From: Actinomycetes bacterium
GTDB taxonomy: Bacteria; Actinomycetota; Acidimicrobiia; Acidimicrobiales; Aldehydirespiratoraceae
Length of the DNA: 36,377 nt
Assembly: GCA_024276355.1 (NCBI GenBank)
Contig: JAJRXJ010000341.1
Location: 1 to 36,377, forward strand
Direction of reading: 5' to 3'
The notes beneath the pieces are model-generated. The model was not told where the DNA came from, ran no database searches, and saw nothing but the letters and a program-made list of their open reading frames with translations. This document shows positions 2,288-33,707 of the stretch, piece by piece; within the stretch, counting starts at the first letter, position 1; every line of letters begins with the position of its first letter. Made by a program: the position numbers and the translations under genes.

Positions 2288-4687
2288 TCAGGCGCCGGCG
2301 ACGGGGATCGACGGGCGGGACCTGCGGGTACGGAGCGGAAGCTGCGAAGCGTCGGGACGACCATAAAGAGTGGTTCGTTGCACAAGCCGGCGGCCGAGAG
2401 GCTCGACCAGGGCCCGGAAATCATCGGGCGTCACATCCGTGCCGTGCTCCGAACCGGCGGCTCGCGAAATGTTTTCGTCCATCAGGGTCCCACCGAGATC
2501 GTTGACACCAGCCTGGAGCAGCTGCCGAACACCCCCGAGACCGAGCTTGACCCACGATCCCTGGATGTTGTCGATGCGCCCTCGGTAGACGATTCGTGCA
2601 ACCGCGTGCATCAGCAGCACCTCGCGCCATGTGGGCCCGCGTCGGGCCCGACGCTGGAGATAGATCGGTGACGCCATGTGGACGAATGGCAGCCCGACGA
2701 ATTCGGTGAAACCCCCGGTCTCCTCCTGCAAGGCACGGGTGAGGAGCATGTGCTCCGCCCAGTGCTCGGGCCGTTCGACCGAGCCGAACATGATGGTGAC
2801 ATTCGACTTCAACCCGACCGAATGGGCCACGCGGTGGGCCTCGAGCCACTCGTGGGTGTTGATCTTGTCCGGGCACAGGATCTCGCGTACGTCGTCCACG
2901 AGGATCTCCGCTGCTGTGCCGGGCAACGACCTCTGACCGGCTTCCATCAGGCGCCTCAGATAGTCGGCGAGCGGTTCGTGGTTTCGCTTGGCTCCCTCGG
3001 TGACCTCGAGCGCGGTGAATCCGTGGATGTGCATGTCGGGTACGGCGTCGTTGACGGCGCGGGCCACGTCTATGTAGTAGTCGCCGTCGAAATCCGGATG
3101 AATCCCGCCCTGGAGGCAGACCTCGGTGGCACCGGCCTCGGCTGCCTCAACGGACCGTTCCGCGATCTGATCGAGTGTGAGCAGGTACGGGGTACCCCGG
3201 AGGTTGAGCGACAGTGGGCCTTTCGAGAACCCGCAGAAACGACATTTGAAGGTGCAGACGTTGGTGTAGTTGATGTTGCGGTTGGCCACCCAGGTGACTA
3301 CCGATCCAACGATTTGAGCGCGGAGTTCATCGGCGACACGGGCAACGGCGGCGACCTCCGGCCCTCGAGCCCGGAACAGGCTCACGATTTGGTCGAACCC
3401 CACGTCGTGGCCCATGCGCACCCCGTCGACGACCTCCCCGACGGCGCCGCCGGCCTCGCCGTCGGCACTGAGTAGATCGGCAGGTTCGGCCCCGGTGCCG
3501 GTGTACCACTGAGAGGAGATGTGGCCGATGAGGTCGAACTCGGCGCCGTCGTCGACCTTGGCCCTCTCCATGGTCCGCTCCGGCCAGACCGAACCGGGGT
3601 CGTCTCGGGCGAAACCGTCGGAGTCGGCTCTGTCCATGACCGCGAAGTGCAGATCCGGATGGATCCACTCTTGGGGTTCACGAACGAAACGCGGATGGAC
3701 CGTGAGACGGGATGCGAGCGTGTGGCCGTGGCGCTCCGTGGTCTCCCGGAGCCGATCCAGTTGAGGCCAGGGCCGTTCGGGATTGACGTGGTCGGCGGTC
3801 ACCGGGGACACGCCGCCCCAGTCGCTCACCCCGACCTCGAGCAGGTCGCCGAAATCGGTGGAGAGATTCGGTGGCGCCTGGACGTGAACATCGTGAGGGA
3901 GAATCACCCTGGCCAGGGCGATCGCGTCGAGGTGCTCACGGCTGGGGCAGGCGGCGTGTGAGTGCATTGCCGTGCCCGGTTTCGGCAGGAAGTTCTGCAC
4001 GATCACCTCCTGGATGTGACCGTGCCGACGATGTGTCGCGGCGATCGCCTCCAAGGCCCGAATGCGATCGCTGCGGTCCTCACCAATGCCGACGAGGATG
4101 CCTGTTGTGTAGGGGACCTGCAGCTCTCCGGCCCATTCGAGTGTGTCGAGTCGGCGTTCGGGAACCTTGTCGGGAGATCCACGGTGGCAATCGAGATCGG
4201 GACGCAGGCTCTCGAGCATCATTCCCTGGCTTGGGGACATTCGCCGGAGGCGCTCGATCTCATGGCGAAACATCGCCCCGGTGTTGGCGTGGGGGAGGAG
4301 ACCGGTCTCGGACAGGACGAGTTCTCCCATGGCGATGACGTAGTCGACGGTTGATTCGAACCCACGCTCGGACAGCCAACGAGCAGCGGACGGGTAGCGA
4401 AGCTCCGGCCGCTCACCAAGTGTGAACAGCGCTTCGTGGCATCCGGCATCGGCGCCCTGGCGCGCGATGGCGAGAACCTCGTCTGCGGAAAGGAAGGGCG
4501 AGTCGAGTCGGGCGGGCGGCTGCGCAAACGTGCAGTAGCCGCACTTGTCCCGACACAGCATGGTGAGCGGTATGAAGACCTTCGGCGACCACGTGACAAC
4601 GCTGCCGAAGGCCCTGTCGCGAATCGCTCGGGCCTCGGCGGAGAGTTCGGCGAAGGACAGTGATTCGATCTCAGATCGTGTGGGCAT
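2288..4687 (-). CDS. fbiC: FO synthase (fused CofG/CofH)
   Basis: This 799-residue bifunctional radical-SAM enzyme makes FO (7,8-didemethyl-8-hydroxy-5-deazariboflavin), the chromophore of coenzyme F420, from tyrosine and a ribityl-pyrimidine. The N-terminal CofG half carries a CxxxCxxC iron-sulfur motif at C45, C49 and C52 (within CRDKCGYC). The C-terminal CofH half carries a second one at C478, C482 and C485 (within CTFKCRFC). The fused form is typical of actinobacteria; many archaea and cyanobacteria have two separate proteins. The start ATG has a strong GGAGG site a few bases upstream. It overlaps the end of the upstream HxlR regulator gene by 17 bases, so translation of the two is probably coupled. 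It implies that this organism uses F420-dependent redox enzymes. I am very sure of the assignment. Confidence 0.97.
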   Translation of the reverse strand: MPTRSEIESLSFAELSAEARAIRDRAFGSVVTWSPKVFIPLTMLCRDKCGYCTFAQPPARLDSPFLSADEVLAIARQGADAGCHEALFTLGERPELRYPSAARWLSERGFESTVDYVIAMGELVLSETGLLPHANTGAMFRHEIERLRRMSPSQGMMLESLRPDLDCHRGSPDKVPERRLDTLEWAGELQVPYTTGILVGIGEDRSDRIRALEAIAATHRRHGHIQEVIVQNFLPKPGTAMHSHAACPSREHLDAIALARVILPHDVHVQAPPNLSTDFGDLLEVGVSDWGGVSPVTADHVNPERPWPQLDRLRETTERHGHTLASRLTVHPRFVREPQEWIHPDLHFAVMDRADSDGFARDDPGSVWPERTMERAKVDDGAEFDLIGHISSQWYTGTGAEPADLLSADGEAGGAVGEVVDGVRMGHDVGFDQIVSLFRARGPEVAAVARVADELRAQIVGSVVTWVANRNINYTNVCTFKCRFCGFSKGPLSLNLRGTPYLLTLDQIAERSVEAAEAGATEVCLQGGIHPDFDGDYYIDVARAVNDAVPDMHIHGFTALEVTEGAKRNHEPLADYLRRLMEAGQRSLPGTAAEILVDDVREILCPDKINTHEWLEAHRVAHSVGLKSNVTIMFGSVERPEHWAEHMLLTRALQEETGGFTEFVGLPFVHMASPIYLQRRARRGPTWREVLLMHAVARIVYRGRIDNIQGSWVKLGLGGVRQLLQAGVNDLGGTLMDENISRAAGSEHGTDVTPDDFRALVEPLGRRLVQRTTLYGRPDASQLPLRTRRSRPSIPVAGA

Positions 4688-29274: not shown

Positions 29275-29889
29275 GTGATCGAGACGCCGACCAAAGATGC
29301 CATCATCGTGGCCGCACAGCGTCTCTTCGCGGAGCGCGGCTTCAACGGAACCTCGCTCAACGACATCGCGGCCGTCGTCGGCATACGCAGGCAGAGTCTT
29401 CTCCATCACTTCCCGTCGAAGGAACTGATGTACACCGAGGTGTTCGAGCGAGCCCTTGCCGAGTGGTACGTACGTGTCGAGCAGGCGGTCACCGAAGAGG
29501 ATGCCCACGGTTGGCAGAAGATCGATCACGTCCTCACCGCCGGGTTCGAGTTCTTTCGCGAAAGCCCCGAGTTCGTCCGCATCGTCCGCCGAGAAGCCCT
29601 GGCCGAGGAGGGCTCAGGCCACGTCGATCTCGGTATGGCCCTTCAGCCCTTGTTCGCCAGAGCCGCCGACTACTTCCGCCGTGAGATGGACGCCGGTCAT
29701 TTCCGCCGTCACGATCCCGAGCAGCTCCTCATCACCGGTTACGGCGCGCTGTTGTCGTACTTCAGCGACGCCACATTCATAGCCGGCCTCCTGGGCCACG
29801 ACCCGTTGAGCCCCGAGGCCCTCGAGCGTCGGCTGCAACACGTACGAGGGTTCATTCGTGCCGCGGTCCAGCCCGACAACGTCGACTGA
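29275..29889 (+). CDS. TetR-family transcriptional regulator
   Basis: This 204-residue regulator has the TetR helix-turn-helix at about 8-52 ([24 protein letters not shown], then a recognition helix with [13 protein letters not shown]) and an all-helical ligand domain of unknown specificity. It begins with GTG, probably on a leaderless transcript. It is divergent from transketolase across 61 bases and so may control that operon or itself, although no clear palindrome is visible between them. The next gene downstream encodes a PBP4-like protein. Confidence 0.9.
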
Positions 29890-29941: not shown

Positions 29942-31426
29942 ATGCGCCGCTATTTCGTGCCTCTCATCCTGCTTGCATCCCTCGTCGCCGCGTCGGTCCT
30001 CACCATCCGCTCCGACAACGAGTCCGACCCGGGCCACGCCGTGGCCGAAGAGACGCCGACCGCGGCCGTCTCCACCCCGCTGCTGAGCGTCCGACGGATA
30101 CCCGAGTGGCTGCGCACCCCCACCTCGGACACGATGCTCGGACGTGCGGCCCAGACCGTTCTCATCAACCCGGCCATGCCCGCCGCCAGGTGCGTGACAG
30201 TCCACAGAGACGGGATTGAGGTGGCCCGCAACGACAGCGGCGATCTCCTCGCCCCCGGGGCTCTGCAACGACTCATCACCCTGTCCGCCGCCACCACCCA
30301 GATTCCGGGTGACTCGGTATTTCGTACGGTTGCGGTGGTGCTTGCTGATTCCGTCGTGTCCGAGGACGGTCAACTCGACGGCGACATCTGGCTTGTGGGT
30401 GGGGGAGACCCGGTGCTGTCCACGTCCGACTACGTCGGGCAGTTCCCCGGAGCCCGACCCTTCACGAATCTCGCCACCCTCGCCGACACCGTGGCGGGAC
30501 AGCTGGCCGCCGACGGAATCACGTCCGTATCGGGTGGAATCATGGGCGACGAGACCAAGTACGCGCCGGCGGAGCGCGACTACATCGGCGAGGAAACCCC
30601 GTCGGGTCCGGTCTGGACATCCGACGACATCGCCGCCAATGAGGTCGGACCGCTGTCGGCGTTGATGGTCAACGAAGGGTTCACATCCTGGCCCGACACT
30701 CTCGATCCCGCCCAGAACGTGAGGTCACGGGACCCTGCCGTCGACACCGCTCGCCTGTTCGCGGATCTTCTCACCGAGCGGGGCATCGAGATAAAGGGGC
30801 GCGCCGGCAACTCGGTCGCACCCCAGGGCGGGGATCGACGCACATTGGGCGAGATAGAGTCGCCGCCTTTCTCGGACATAATGCGGTTTGCCTTGACTGC
30901 CGACGGCGCGACCACATCGGAGATGATCCTGAAGGAGATCGGCGTTCGCAGCGGCGTCGGAGCCGTACGCGCCAACGCCATCTTGTTCGGCGAGGTGATT
31001 CTTCTCGACCGGGCCGGCCTGCCCGTCTTCGGCACAGCCGTGGCCGACGGTTCCGGGTTGTCCTCGCTCAACAAGACCACCTGCGACATGCTGGTGTCGG
31101 TTCTGGAACACACCTCCGTGGCCGACGACATGATGGCCGCCATCCCCACAGCAGCCGATGGCCCCCTGGCGGACTGTCTCTCCGAGATCGGTGGCGAGGC
31201 CCGAATTCTGGCGGTGTCCGATTCCGACACCGTCGGGGTCGTCGGTGCCATCACCACCTCCAACGGCGACCAGGTGAGCTTCGCGATGCTGGCCAACGAT
31301 CCCGACCTGGGGACCACCCTCGGGCAGTGCAACTCGCTCCAGACATCGATGGTCGAGGCCGCGGCCGGACATCCCTACGGTCCCGCTCTCGACGATCTGG
31401 CCCCGTCACCCCCGACCACGGGCTGA
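29942..31426 (+). CDS. PBP4/DacB-like (S13) protein with degenerate active site
   Basis: This 494-residue exported protein has an N-terminal membrane anchor or signal (about 5-22) and follows the D-alanyl-D-alanine carboxypeptidase fold of family S13: a GDIWLVGGGDPVLS block at about 147-160, an ADGSGLS block at 368-374 and a C-terminal ITTSNGDQVSFAMLAN block. The three catalytic motifs are nevertheless lost. The SxxK phrase (normally PASxxKL) reads PGALQRL at 105-111, giving Ala107 and Arg110. The SxN phrase (normally SDNxxAE) reads DGATTSE at 321-327. The KTG region reads VSDSDTVG near 425-432. Flanking conserved blocks stay in frame, so a frameshift does not explain this. It is probably a noncatalytic cell-wall binding or regulatory protein. 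Confidence 0.82.
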   Translation: MRRYFVPLILLASLVAASVLTIRSDNESDPGHAVAEETPTAAVSTPLLSVRRIPEWLRTPTSDTMLGRAAQTVLINPAMPAARCVTVHRDGIEVARNDSGDLLAPGALQRLITLSAATTQIPGDSVFRTVAVVLADSVVSEDGQLDGDIWLVGGGDPVLSTSDYVGQFPGARPFTNLATLADTVAGQLAADGITSVSGGIMGDETKYAPAERDYIGEETPSGPVWTSDDIAANEVGPLSALMVNEGFTSWPDTLDPAQNVRSRDPAVDTARLFADLLTERGIEIKGRAGNSVAPQGGDRRTLGEIESPPFSDIMRFALTADGATTSEMILKEIGVRSGVGAVRANAILFGEVILLDRAGLPVFGTAVADGSGLSSLNKTTCDMLVSVLEHTSVADDMMAAIPTAADGPLADCLSEIGGEARILAVSDSDTVGVVGAITTSNGDQVSFAMLANDPDLGTTLGQCNSLQTSMVEAAAGHPYGPALDDLAPSPPTTG

Positions 31427-31440
31427 GAGGCCCCACCCGG

Positions 31441-32091
31441 ATGGAACCGACCGTCGACCGGGAGCTTCCGGTGTTTCCGCTGGGATCAGTGGTCTTGCCC
31501 GGGGTCGTCGTTCCACTGAGGATCTTCGAGGATCGCTACTGCACGCTCGCGACCGATCTGTCCGCCCCGGATTCCGATCGCCGCTTCTCGACAGTGATGA
31601 TAGAACGCGGTAGCGAGGTGGGCGGATCCGATGTGAGGGCCGACATCGGCTGCATTCTCGAGACCGTCGCCATCAGACAGCACCCTGACGGCACCTGGGA
31701 TCTGGCAGCCGCGGCCATTTCCAGGATGCAGGTGATCAGATGGCTCCACGACGATCCGTATCCCCGCGCAGTCACGCGTCCGTGGCCCGACGATCCGGGG
31801 CCGGAGATCTCGCGCCACGATCTGTCACGGCTGCTCGAATCCATCAGAGAGCTTTGCGATGGAGCGGCTGCTCTCGGGCAGGCCATCACCCTGCCCGATG
31901 TTGCCCGCAACTCCGTTTCCGGCGCCTTGTGGAAGCTCTGCGCATCCCTGCCCATGGCGGATCTCGACCGGTACCGGGTGCTGAGCGCACCCTCGGTGGA
32001 AATGCGGTTCGACCTTCTCGGCGGTCTGGTTCGACAACAACTCGAATTGCTCGAACTCATCTCACGACAGGGACACAATCCGAACGGATAG
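31441..32091 (+). CDS. stand-alone Lon N-terminal (substrate-binding) domain protein
   Basis: This 216-residue protein consists of a Lon_substr_bdg domain, seen in the family opening LPVFPLGSVVLPGVVVPLRIFEDRY split over residues 9-33, followed by a helical second half with ESIRELCDGAAAL and LLGGLVRQQLELLELI. It lacks the AAA+ and protease domains of Lon. Such single-domain proteins are common in actinobacteria; their function is unknown, though the domain binds proteins in Lon. The ATG lies 14 bases after the PBP4-like gene; the longer upstream frame overlaps that gene and is a shadow. Ribosome site is weak. Confidence 0.85.
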   Translation: MEPTVDRELPVFPLGSVVLPGVVVPLRIFEDRYCTLATDLSAPDSDRRFSTVMIERGSEVGGSDVRADIGCILETVAIRQHPDGTWDLAAAAISRMQVIRWLHDDPYPRAVTRPWPDDPGPEISRHDLSRLLESIRELCDGAAALGQAITLPDVARNSVSGALWKLCASLPMADLDRYRVLSAPSVEMRFDLLGGLVRQQLELLELISRQGHNPNG

Positions 32092-32094
32092 GGT
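32089..32094 (+). promoter_or_regulatory. candidate -10 element before the microprotein genes
   Basis: TAGGGT overlaps the stop codon of the Lon N-domain gene and lies 24 bases before the ATG of the first small membrane protein, which has its own AGGAG. It may start a separate message. No clear -35 is visible. Confidence 0.3.
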
Positions 32095-32117
32095 TGCGAT
32101 CCCGACCCGGAGGAGAA

Positions 32118-32414
32118 ATGGCCGACAGACCCGGACCCGGCGAGATGTTCGACCTCGTCAAGTCCTACGCGAAACAGGAGATCCTCGGCCCGCTCCGCGG
32201 ATCAGGCCGCTGGATCTCATTTGGTCTCATGGGCAGCATTCTCCTGATGCTCGGACTCACCTCGCTGAGCCTGGCACTGCTCCGGGCGCTTCAGGAAGAG
32301 ACCGGCTCCACATTCACCGGCAATCTCTCGTGGCTGCCCGGCACCATCACTCTCGTTGCGGTGTCGGCGGTCCTGGTGTTGCTCGTCTCCAGAATCAGCA
32401 AGAGGAGCCTCTGA
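32118..32414 (+). CDS. small two-helix membrane protein, 98 residues
   Basis: A soluble amphipathic start (DLVKSYAKQEIL) leads into two hydrophobic helices at about 33-55 and 70-92. The layout recalls actinobacterial holin-X-like (phage holin superfamily III) small membrane proteins, but the match is loose. GGAGGAG lies directly upstream with good spacing to the ATG. Its stop overlaps the next gene's ATG (TGATG). It is the first of three coupled small genes ahead of trmI. The function is unknown. Confidence 0.75.
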   Translation: MADRPGPGEMFDLVKSYAKQEILGPLRGSGRWISFGLMGSILLMLGLTSLSLALLRALQEETGSTFTGNLSWLPGTITLVAVSAVLVLLVSRISKRSL

Positions 32415-32626
32415 TGGCCGACAACGACGAACCCATATCGCGCGAAGACCTTCGTTCTTCGTTCCGGGCATTCAAAGACGACATCGATCAGACGGCCGAC
32501 GAGGCCGCGTCCAAGGCCATGCCCGTTTTCGCCATCGGTGGGGTCCTGTTGCTGATCGTCGTGTTTCTGCTCGGTCGCCGGGCCGGCCGCACCAAGTCCA
32601 CAGTTGTAGAGATTCGCAGGATCTGA
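32414..32626 (+). CDS. small single-helix membrane protein, 70 residues
   Basis: An acidic, helical cytoplasmic-looking part (about 1-35, with REDLRSSFRAFKDDIDQTADEA split over it) is followed by one membrane helix at about 36-54 and a basic tail with RRAGRTK. AGGAG at 32403-32407 serves its ATG, which overlaps the upstream stop as TGATG. Its own stop overlaps the next ATG in the same way. I recognise no family. Confidence 0.72.
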   Translation: MADNDEPISREDLRSSFRAFKDDIDQTADEAASKAMPVFAIGGVLLLIVVFLLGRRAGRTKSTVVEIRRI

Positions 32627-32927: not shown

Positions 32928-33707
32928 ATGACCAACCGAATCAACCTGGCAGCCGGCGACACCGTGCTGCTCATCGATCGCAAGAAGCGGCGCTACCTGA
33001 TCGATCTCGCCGACGGGGGAGAGTTCCATTCCCATTCCGGTGTCCTCGCCCACGACTCCATGATCGGGCACCCCGAGGGCACCACCTTCAGATCCACCCG
33101 GGGCATGGTGTTCATCGCCGTTCGCCCGACACTCACCGACTACATCCTCAAGATGCCGCGCGGGGCGCAGGTGATCTATCCGAAGGACATCGGCCCGATT
33201 CTGGTGTTGGCCGACATATACCCCGGAGCCCGTGTTCTCGAATCTGGTCTCGGCAGCGGCGCGCTGTCCACCGGGTTGCTCCGGGTGGGCGCGGAGATCA
33301 CCGGCTACGAGATCAGGGAGGACTTCGAAAGCCGGGCCCGCGAGAACGTGTCCCGCTTCCTGGGCACCGGCGCACTCGACCACTATCAGACGGCCGTGCG
33401 CGATGTGTACGAAGGCATCGACGAGACCGATCTCGACCGAGTGATACTTGACCTGCCCGAACCGTGGAGGGTCGTGCCCCTCGCCCGTGACGCACTCCGA
33501 ATCGGCGGGATCTTCCTGGCCTATACCCCGAGCATCATCCAGGCCTCACAGTTGTCGGAAGCACTCGCCGATTCACCATTCGGCATGGTCGAGACGCTTG
33601 AGGTGCTGAACCGCACATGGCATGTCGAGGGCAACGCGGTGCGCCCCGACCATCGCATGGTCGCCCACACCGGTTTCCTCACCCACGCGCGCCTCCTGGT
33701 CGAGTGA
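32928..33707 (+). CDS. trmI: tRNA (adenine-58-N1)-methyltransferase
   Basis: This 259-residue SAM-dependent enzyme methylates A58 in the T-loop of tRNA. It has an N-terminal beta-rich domain and a Rossmann methyltransferase domain with the SAM-binding motif VLESGLGSGALS at about 104-115 and the catalytic-region phrase DLPEPW at about 179-184. The family phrase PKDIGPIL is at about 85-92. In actinobacteria this gene sits near the proteasome ATPase gene, as here. AGGAAG lies about 12 bases before the ATG. Its stop overlaps the start of the following protease gene. Confidence 0.94.
   Translation: MTNRINLAAGDTVLLIDRKKRRYLIDLADGGEFHSHSGVLAHDSMIGHPEGTTFRSTRGMVFIAVRPTLTDYILKMPRGAQVIYPKDIGPILVLADIYPGARVLESGLGSGALSTGLLRVGAEITGYEIREDFESRARENVSRFLGTGALDHYQTAVRDVYEGIDETDLDRVILDLPEPWRVVPLARDALRIGGIFLAYTPSIIQASQLSEALADSPFGMVETLEVLNRTWHVEGNAVRPDHRMVAHTGFLTHARLLVE

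Follow-up and report, generated by a model that had tools for sequence, protein, structure and literature searches.

A PBP4-type protein of uncultured Acidimicrobiales that lacks its catalytic motifs and is probably retained as a non-enzymatic cell-wall protein

The window analyzed here, a stretch of 36,377 nucleotides, encodes a PBP4-type Peptidase_S13 protein in which, judging from alignments, all three catalytic motifs have been lost. The predicted fold, the locus, an N-terminal membrane anchor and a juxtamembrane LSxRRxP motif are retained under purifying selection. The protein is most likely a non-enzymatic cell-wall helper. We consider it probable that the protein, which is the positional orthologue of the Acidimicrobiales PBP4-type D,D-peptidase, is a genuine pseudoenzyme kept as a non-catalytic adaptor or regulator. 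The dead lineage (copies without the motifs) consists of uncultured Acidimicrobiales, and the loss covers the whole catalytic center. Penicillin-binding proteins (PBPs) are usually studied as enzymes. When a PBP4 orthologue is dead in three motifs across a clade, is under selection and has living sisters at the same locus, it offers a natural experiment on class C PBPs, and the contrast separates their catalytic from their structural roles. Cultured relatives with an intact copy (e.g., Ilumatobacter) make a non-catalytic role testable. No published S13 pseudoenzyme came up in a limited literature search, which reached few subscription papers.

Table 1. Features of the S13 locus, with positions in the window.
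Feature	Position	Strand	Basis
TetR-family regulator, upstream, conserved neighbor	29275..29889	+	PF00440, PF17938, synteny
Dead Peptidase_S13 (PBP4-type) protein, 494 aa	29942..31426	+	ORF (ATG start at 29942, stop codon ending at 31426), PF02113, structure model
N-terminal membrane-anchor helix, residues 5-28, after MRR	29954..30025	+	Model helix, hydrophobic sequence
Juxtamembrane motif TPLLSVRRIPEWLRTP, residues 45-60 (LSxRRxP core)	30074..30121	+	Low entropy in dead proteins
Former SxxK box, now PGALQR (Ser107->Ala, Lys110->Arg)	30254..30271	+	Alignments
Former SxN box, now DGA, residues 321-323	30902..30910	+	Alignments
DGSGLS, kept S13 sequence, residues 369-374	31046..31063	+	Alignment of dead and intact proteins
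Former KTG box, now LAV, residues 423-425, inside strand 419-427	31208..31216	+	Multiple alignment
Stand-alone Lon N-terminal (substrate-binding) domain protein, 216 aa	31441..32091	+	PF02190 (72.7 bits), start codon
98-aa small membrane protein	32118..32414	+	Weak holin-X-like match, PF07332 (17.5 bits, below cut-off); synteny
70-aa membrane microprotein, overlapping the stop of the 98-aa gene	32414..32626	+	Synteny
TrmI-type tRNA (adenine-58) methyltransferase, locus anchor gene	32928..33707	+	PF14801, PF08704, synteny

The protein is a full-length Peptidase_S13 homologue by profile (PF02113, 104.8 bits against a Pfam cut-off of 22.8); with TIGR00666, the NCBIfam equivalog model for active PBP4, it scores 72.8 bits, below the cut-off of 107.8. 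We read its motifs by aligning it to E. coli PBP4 and roughly 60 S13 relatives. PASTQK in these proteins corresponds to PGALQR in the window protein, and KSDN corresponds to ADGA. The KTG strand reads ILAVSDSD. At the motif, the multiple alignment has L423, A424 and V425, and the pairwise one against E. coli PBP4 has S, D and S; K-T-G is absent in both registers. Replacement of SxxK, SxN and KTG had been claimed from the sequence alone, and both kinds of alignment bear it out. Within the DGSGLS sequence, D369, G370, S371 and G372 are invariant in dead proteins and conserved in intact ones (27 versus 27 homologues). The MRR that precedes the anchor helix is also conserved.

Structure prediction (AF2), with an input alignment of the window sequence and fetched relatives, gave a model with pLDDT 90.9 and pTM 0.84, a confidence partly expected because AF2 training included S13 structures. 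The model has the S13 fold including the inserted domains. Its best structural match is Actinomadura R39 (PDB 1w79; Z 38.2, rmsd 2.4, 379 residues), followed by E. coli PBP4/DacB (2ex2; Z about 33.9-34.7) and B. subtilis PBP4a (Z 32.4), and Foldseek agrees. An intact orthologue matches R39 with a Z of 38.4 over 382 residues. Given such similar values for dead and intact proteins, the fold, inserted domains included, is predicted to be unaffected. The comparison with R39 and E. coli PBP4 proposed in the sequence-only reading thus matched both, and upheld its view that the fold survives triple motif loss. With these two proteins, and with MEROPS family S13, the window protein shares the fold over about 370-380 residues, the inserted domains and DGSG; unlike R39 and E. 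coli PBP4, it lacks the three motifs and carries its own N-terminal anchor and LSxRRxP. Intact sister orthologues at the same locus (L078, from G009, and L096; 36-48% identity) resemble it in locus, anchor, juxtamembrane motif and fold, but keep PASxMK, SDN and KTG.

S13 relatives are present in 52 of the 61 genomes searched. Motifs were read in 126 distinct S13 ORFs, taken from these genomes and from a named contig set. The latter consists almost entirely of MAGs assigned to Acidimicrobiales or Actinomycetota, and also includes one with the label Planctomycetota and the isolate Ilumatobacter nonamiensis. An alignment-based contig search yielded 78 loci and a single-protein query yielded none. 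No S13 relatives were found in viral contigs, and a viral or mobile origin of the window gene was rejected on this basis. Among 51 genomes of the window's family, 28 genomes in six genera have a dead copy and 20 in four genera have an intact one, a clean split by genus; the intact copies keep their motifs and occupy the same locus. The other three genomes (G018, G027 and G072, MAGs of dead genera that are 82-92% complete) yielded no copy. A quick tree of 97 S13 rows, built with the motif columns removed and with SH-aLRT support in place of bootstraps, unites the 27 dead proteins of the family in one clade (SH-aLRT 99) that branches from within the intact ones. This topology indicates a single inactivation in the ancestor of the six genera, with the gene kept afterwards.

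The loss is concentrated at the catalytic center. In a comparison of 27 dead with 27 intact proteins, all seven catalytic positions are lost. Another 74 positions show at least 88% conservation in the intact set, and 13 of these are lost in the dead one (Fisher p = 2e-5); several of the 13 adjoin the motifs or fall within a GxxGTL-like stretch (106, 317, 405-409, 422, 427 and 430). Arg occupies position 110 in every one of the 27 dead proteins, and Lys in every one of the 27 intact ones. At position 107 Ser is never found in dead proteins, which have E (16), A (5), P (3), D (2) or Y (1) there. The Ser and Asn of SxN are found in none of the 27 dead and all 27 intact proteins, and the Lys, Thr and Gly of KTG are each found in 0/27 dead proteins. 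Dead members outside the window's genus have a two-residue deletion at the SxN site.

Two more dead copies were found outside this clade. L055 (positions 3161-4642; genome G052, of another family) carries PGHSLL, NDA and LVGGVV at the same locus, and the downstream copy of a tandem S13 pair (L135:6884-9666) carries AGKLQR, DDP and AAIGS next to an intact upstream copy. On the tree they are two further independent losses, although their exact placement is unsure because both are long branches (that of L055 very long). L055 also retains the juxtamembrane RR motif. The dead L135 copy is an independent pseudoenzyme adjoining a living paralogue.

Measurement of dN/dS among relatives, suggested from the sequence alone, points to purifying selection after the catalytic loss. 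Pairwise Nei-Gojobori values, only indicative because dS reaches about 1.8, are 0.08-0.31 for dead pairs, no higher than the 0.13-0.41 for pairs of intact orthologues. By dead genus they are 0.15-0.29 (the window's genus), 0.11-0.22 (g2), 0.13-0.31 (g3) and 0.08-0.10 (g8). Column entropy averages 1.57 bits in dead and 1.69 bits in intact proteins. No dead copy of the window's clade has an in-frame stop, and the marks of a pseudogene (frameshifts, stops, relaxed selection) are absent from the clade. Purifying selection, fold retention and the lack of a second intact S13 in the genome (below) all support the pseudoenzyme interpretation that had been drawn from the motifs.

The gene order is common to dead and intact copies wherever flanks are present: transaldolase and transketolase (on the opposite strand), TetR, S13, the Lon-N protein, a holin-like protein, the 70-aa microprotein, TrmI, a trypsin-like lipoprotein, ferredoxin and Mpa. 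The dead gene is therefore a positional orthologue rather than a spare paralogue. The Lon-N gene begins 14 nt 3' of the S13 stop in the window and is conserved downstream of both dead and intact S13 genes. The sequence-only reading had placed a Lon N-domain protein and microproteins beside the S13 gene; these are a stand-alone Lon-N protein and two small membrane proteins. Across the order, this trio (31441-32626) is kept between S13 and TrmI.

The stretch TPLLSVRRIPEWLRTP lies outside the S13 domain, between it and the anchor helix. In dead proteins its entropy is among the lowest: of 482 windows of sixteen residues, only four rank below it. Of 29 syntenic dead copies, 28 have LSxRRxP, with each of the three independent losses represented; L091 is the one that does not, and it still has RR. 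Among the 54 syntenic intact copies, the motif is found in 43, and RR without P in three more. LSxRRxP is absent from S13 paralogues that are clearly elsewhere (e.g., L035, L036, L057, L061, L063-L066, L101, L103 and L107-L115); the 12 motif-bearing rows binned as non-syntenic are short contigs or matched too few of the window's neighbors. The motif tracks the locus and not the catalytic state, the pattern expected of a non-catalytic docking function, and its conservation favors an adaptor or docking role.

The loss raises the question of which enzyme performs the carboxypeptidase chemistry. The absences reported here rest mainly on genus- and family-mates, since the window's genome is only about 90% complete: the PF02113 profile search found no second S13 in that genome or its genus-mates, and no S11 (DacA-type) match above cut-off was found in it or in the family. 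The first result rejects the intact second DacB for which a search had been proposed, and the second rejects an S11 replacement. G032 is the only dead-S13 genome of the family with another S13, which is intact and unrelated. Five transpeptidase-domain matches were identified in the window's genome, and the four inspected all have SxxK and KTG motifs. M15 (VanY-type) metallopeptidases have at least one match in every family genome screened but one. Among them, a VanY-SLH protein (PF02557 plus SLH; G000:C143:2626-3876, locus L158, in the window's genome; orthologues L159-L177, L179 and L180) is confined within the family to dead-S13 genera. Of the 28 dead-S13 genomes 22 have it, as do all three without a recovered S13, and none of the 20 intact ones does; because the genomes form one clade, this correlation represents one evolutionary event, not 22. 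The VanY-SLH protein keeps SKHHTGYAID, but its own activity is unsure because EPWE replaces the EPWH of aligned M15 enzymes. We regard VanY-SLH as a lead to the replacement enzyme, not as proof. Loss of L,D-transpeptidases was rejected as an explanation, as the presence of YkuD (PF03734) is independent of S13 state: it went undetected in dead genus g2 and in intact genera g4 and g6, and is present in most other dead genera. The pattern in g2, g4 and g6 suggests different cross-linking chemistry within one family.

We propose that the dead S13 protein is anchored on the outside of the cytoplasmic membrane and has a role that needs no catalysis. A partner would dock at the LSxRRxP stretch, and stem peptides or a cell-wall enzyme would bind to the surface of the S13 domain. 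The protein may thus be an adaptor or regulator of peptidoglycan metabolism, or, as the sequence-only reading put it, a sensor or scaffold. The D,D-carboxypeptidase chemistry would have moved to another enzyme, for which the M15 metallopeptidases are the sole candidates detected. A parallel may be seen in the degenerate LytM proteins DipM (PMC10336132) and ActS (PMC8360153), which have a peptidoglycan-hydrolase fold without catalysis and a regulator function based on experiment. These belong to M23/LytM and not S13, so the analogy is to how they work and no homology is claimed; for the S13 protein we infer the regulator function.

Other explanations fit parts of these data. Slow decay of a gene that appears conserved because its loss is recent would account for the three family MAGs without a recovered copy, but the loss is older than the split of six genera, the clade has low dN/dS and no in-frame stops, and the gene keeps its locus wherever flanks are available. 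On the basis of selection, synteny and clade age we reject a decaying gene, the chance of which seems negligible. It is also very improbable that the protein has re-invented its active site and remains an enzyme, using another nucleophile in the same cleft. Retention of the fold and of DGSG would suit such an enzyme, as would the invariance of S307, S371, S374, T324, T325, E327 and D369 in the dead clade. However, the majority are conserved in intact copies too and are thus structural or general, residue 107 is variable, and the SxN site has suffered the deletion described above. No Lys is invariant across the 27 dead proteins, so no substitute Ser/Lys dyad is conserved, and a replacement pair, which would have counted against the reading from sequence, is rejected. 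The dead proteins could keep some unrelated activity.

LSxRRxP is the clearest feature common to all three dead lineages, and this would be understandable if the protein were kept solely for operon stability or as a membrane-anchored carrier of the motif, its S13 domain having no specific function. We think this unlikely, given that the globular domain is equally conserved in dead and intact proteins by column entropy and that the most conserved window in dead proteins lies around GG(G/A)DPV (145-160). The distribution of VanY-SLH raises the unlikely prospect that the dead S13 partners with or regulates this metallo-carboxypeptidase, which would have taken over the chemistry in the clade; against this stand the single origin of the correlation, the six dead genomes without VanY-SLH and the EPWE substitution. 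A non-catalytic adaptor or regulator remains our preferred reading. A broader version, to which we give rather less than even credence, is that the S13 protein at the Acidimicrobiales Lon-N/TrmI/Mpa locus has had an additional, non-catalytic function throughout its history, performed via LSxRRxP and the domain surface and probably linked to its small membrane neighbors. Catalysis would then have been dispensable and, after a different carboxypeptidase had taken on the chemistry, would have disappeared on three or more occasions, so that a dedicated pseudo-PBP adaptor remained.

Other features of these S13 proteins were also observed. Four cysteines (C84, C381, C412 and C463) are invariant in the dead clade and may form disulfides; C412 and C463 occur in only 11 of 27 intact homologues. 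Tandem S13 pairs with both copies intact were identified in L134, L136, L141, L147 and L054, from Ilumatobacteraceae-like genomes and mostly at the same locus. A non-syntenic S13 subfamily (L107-L109, L111, L112, L114 and L115) has KGG for KTG and SEN for SDN, with SxxK intact.
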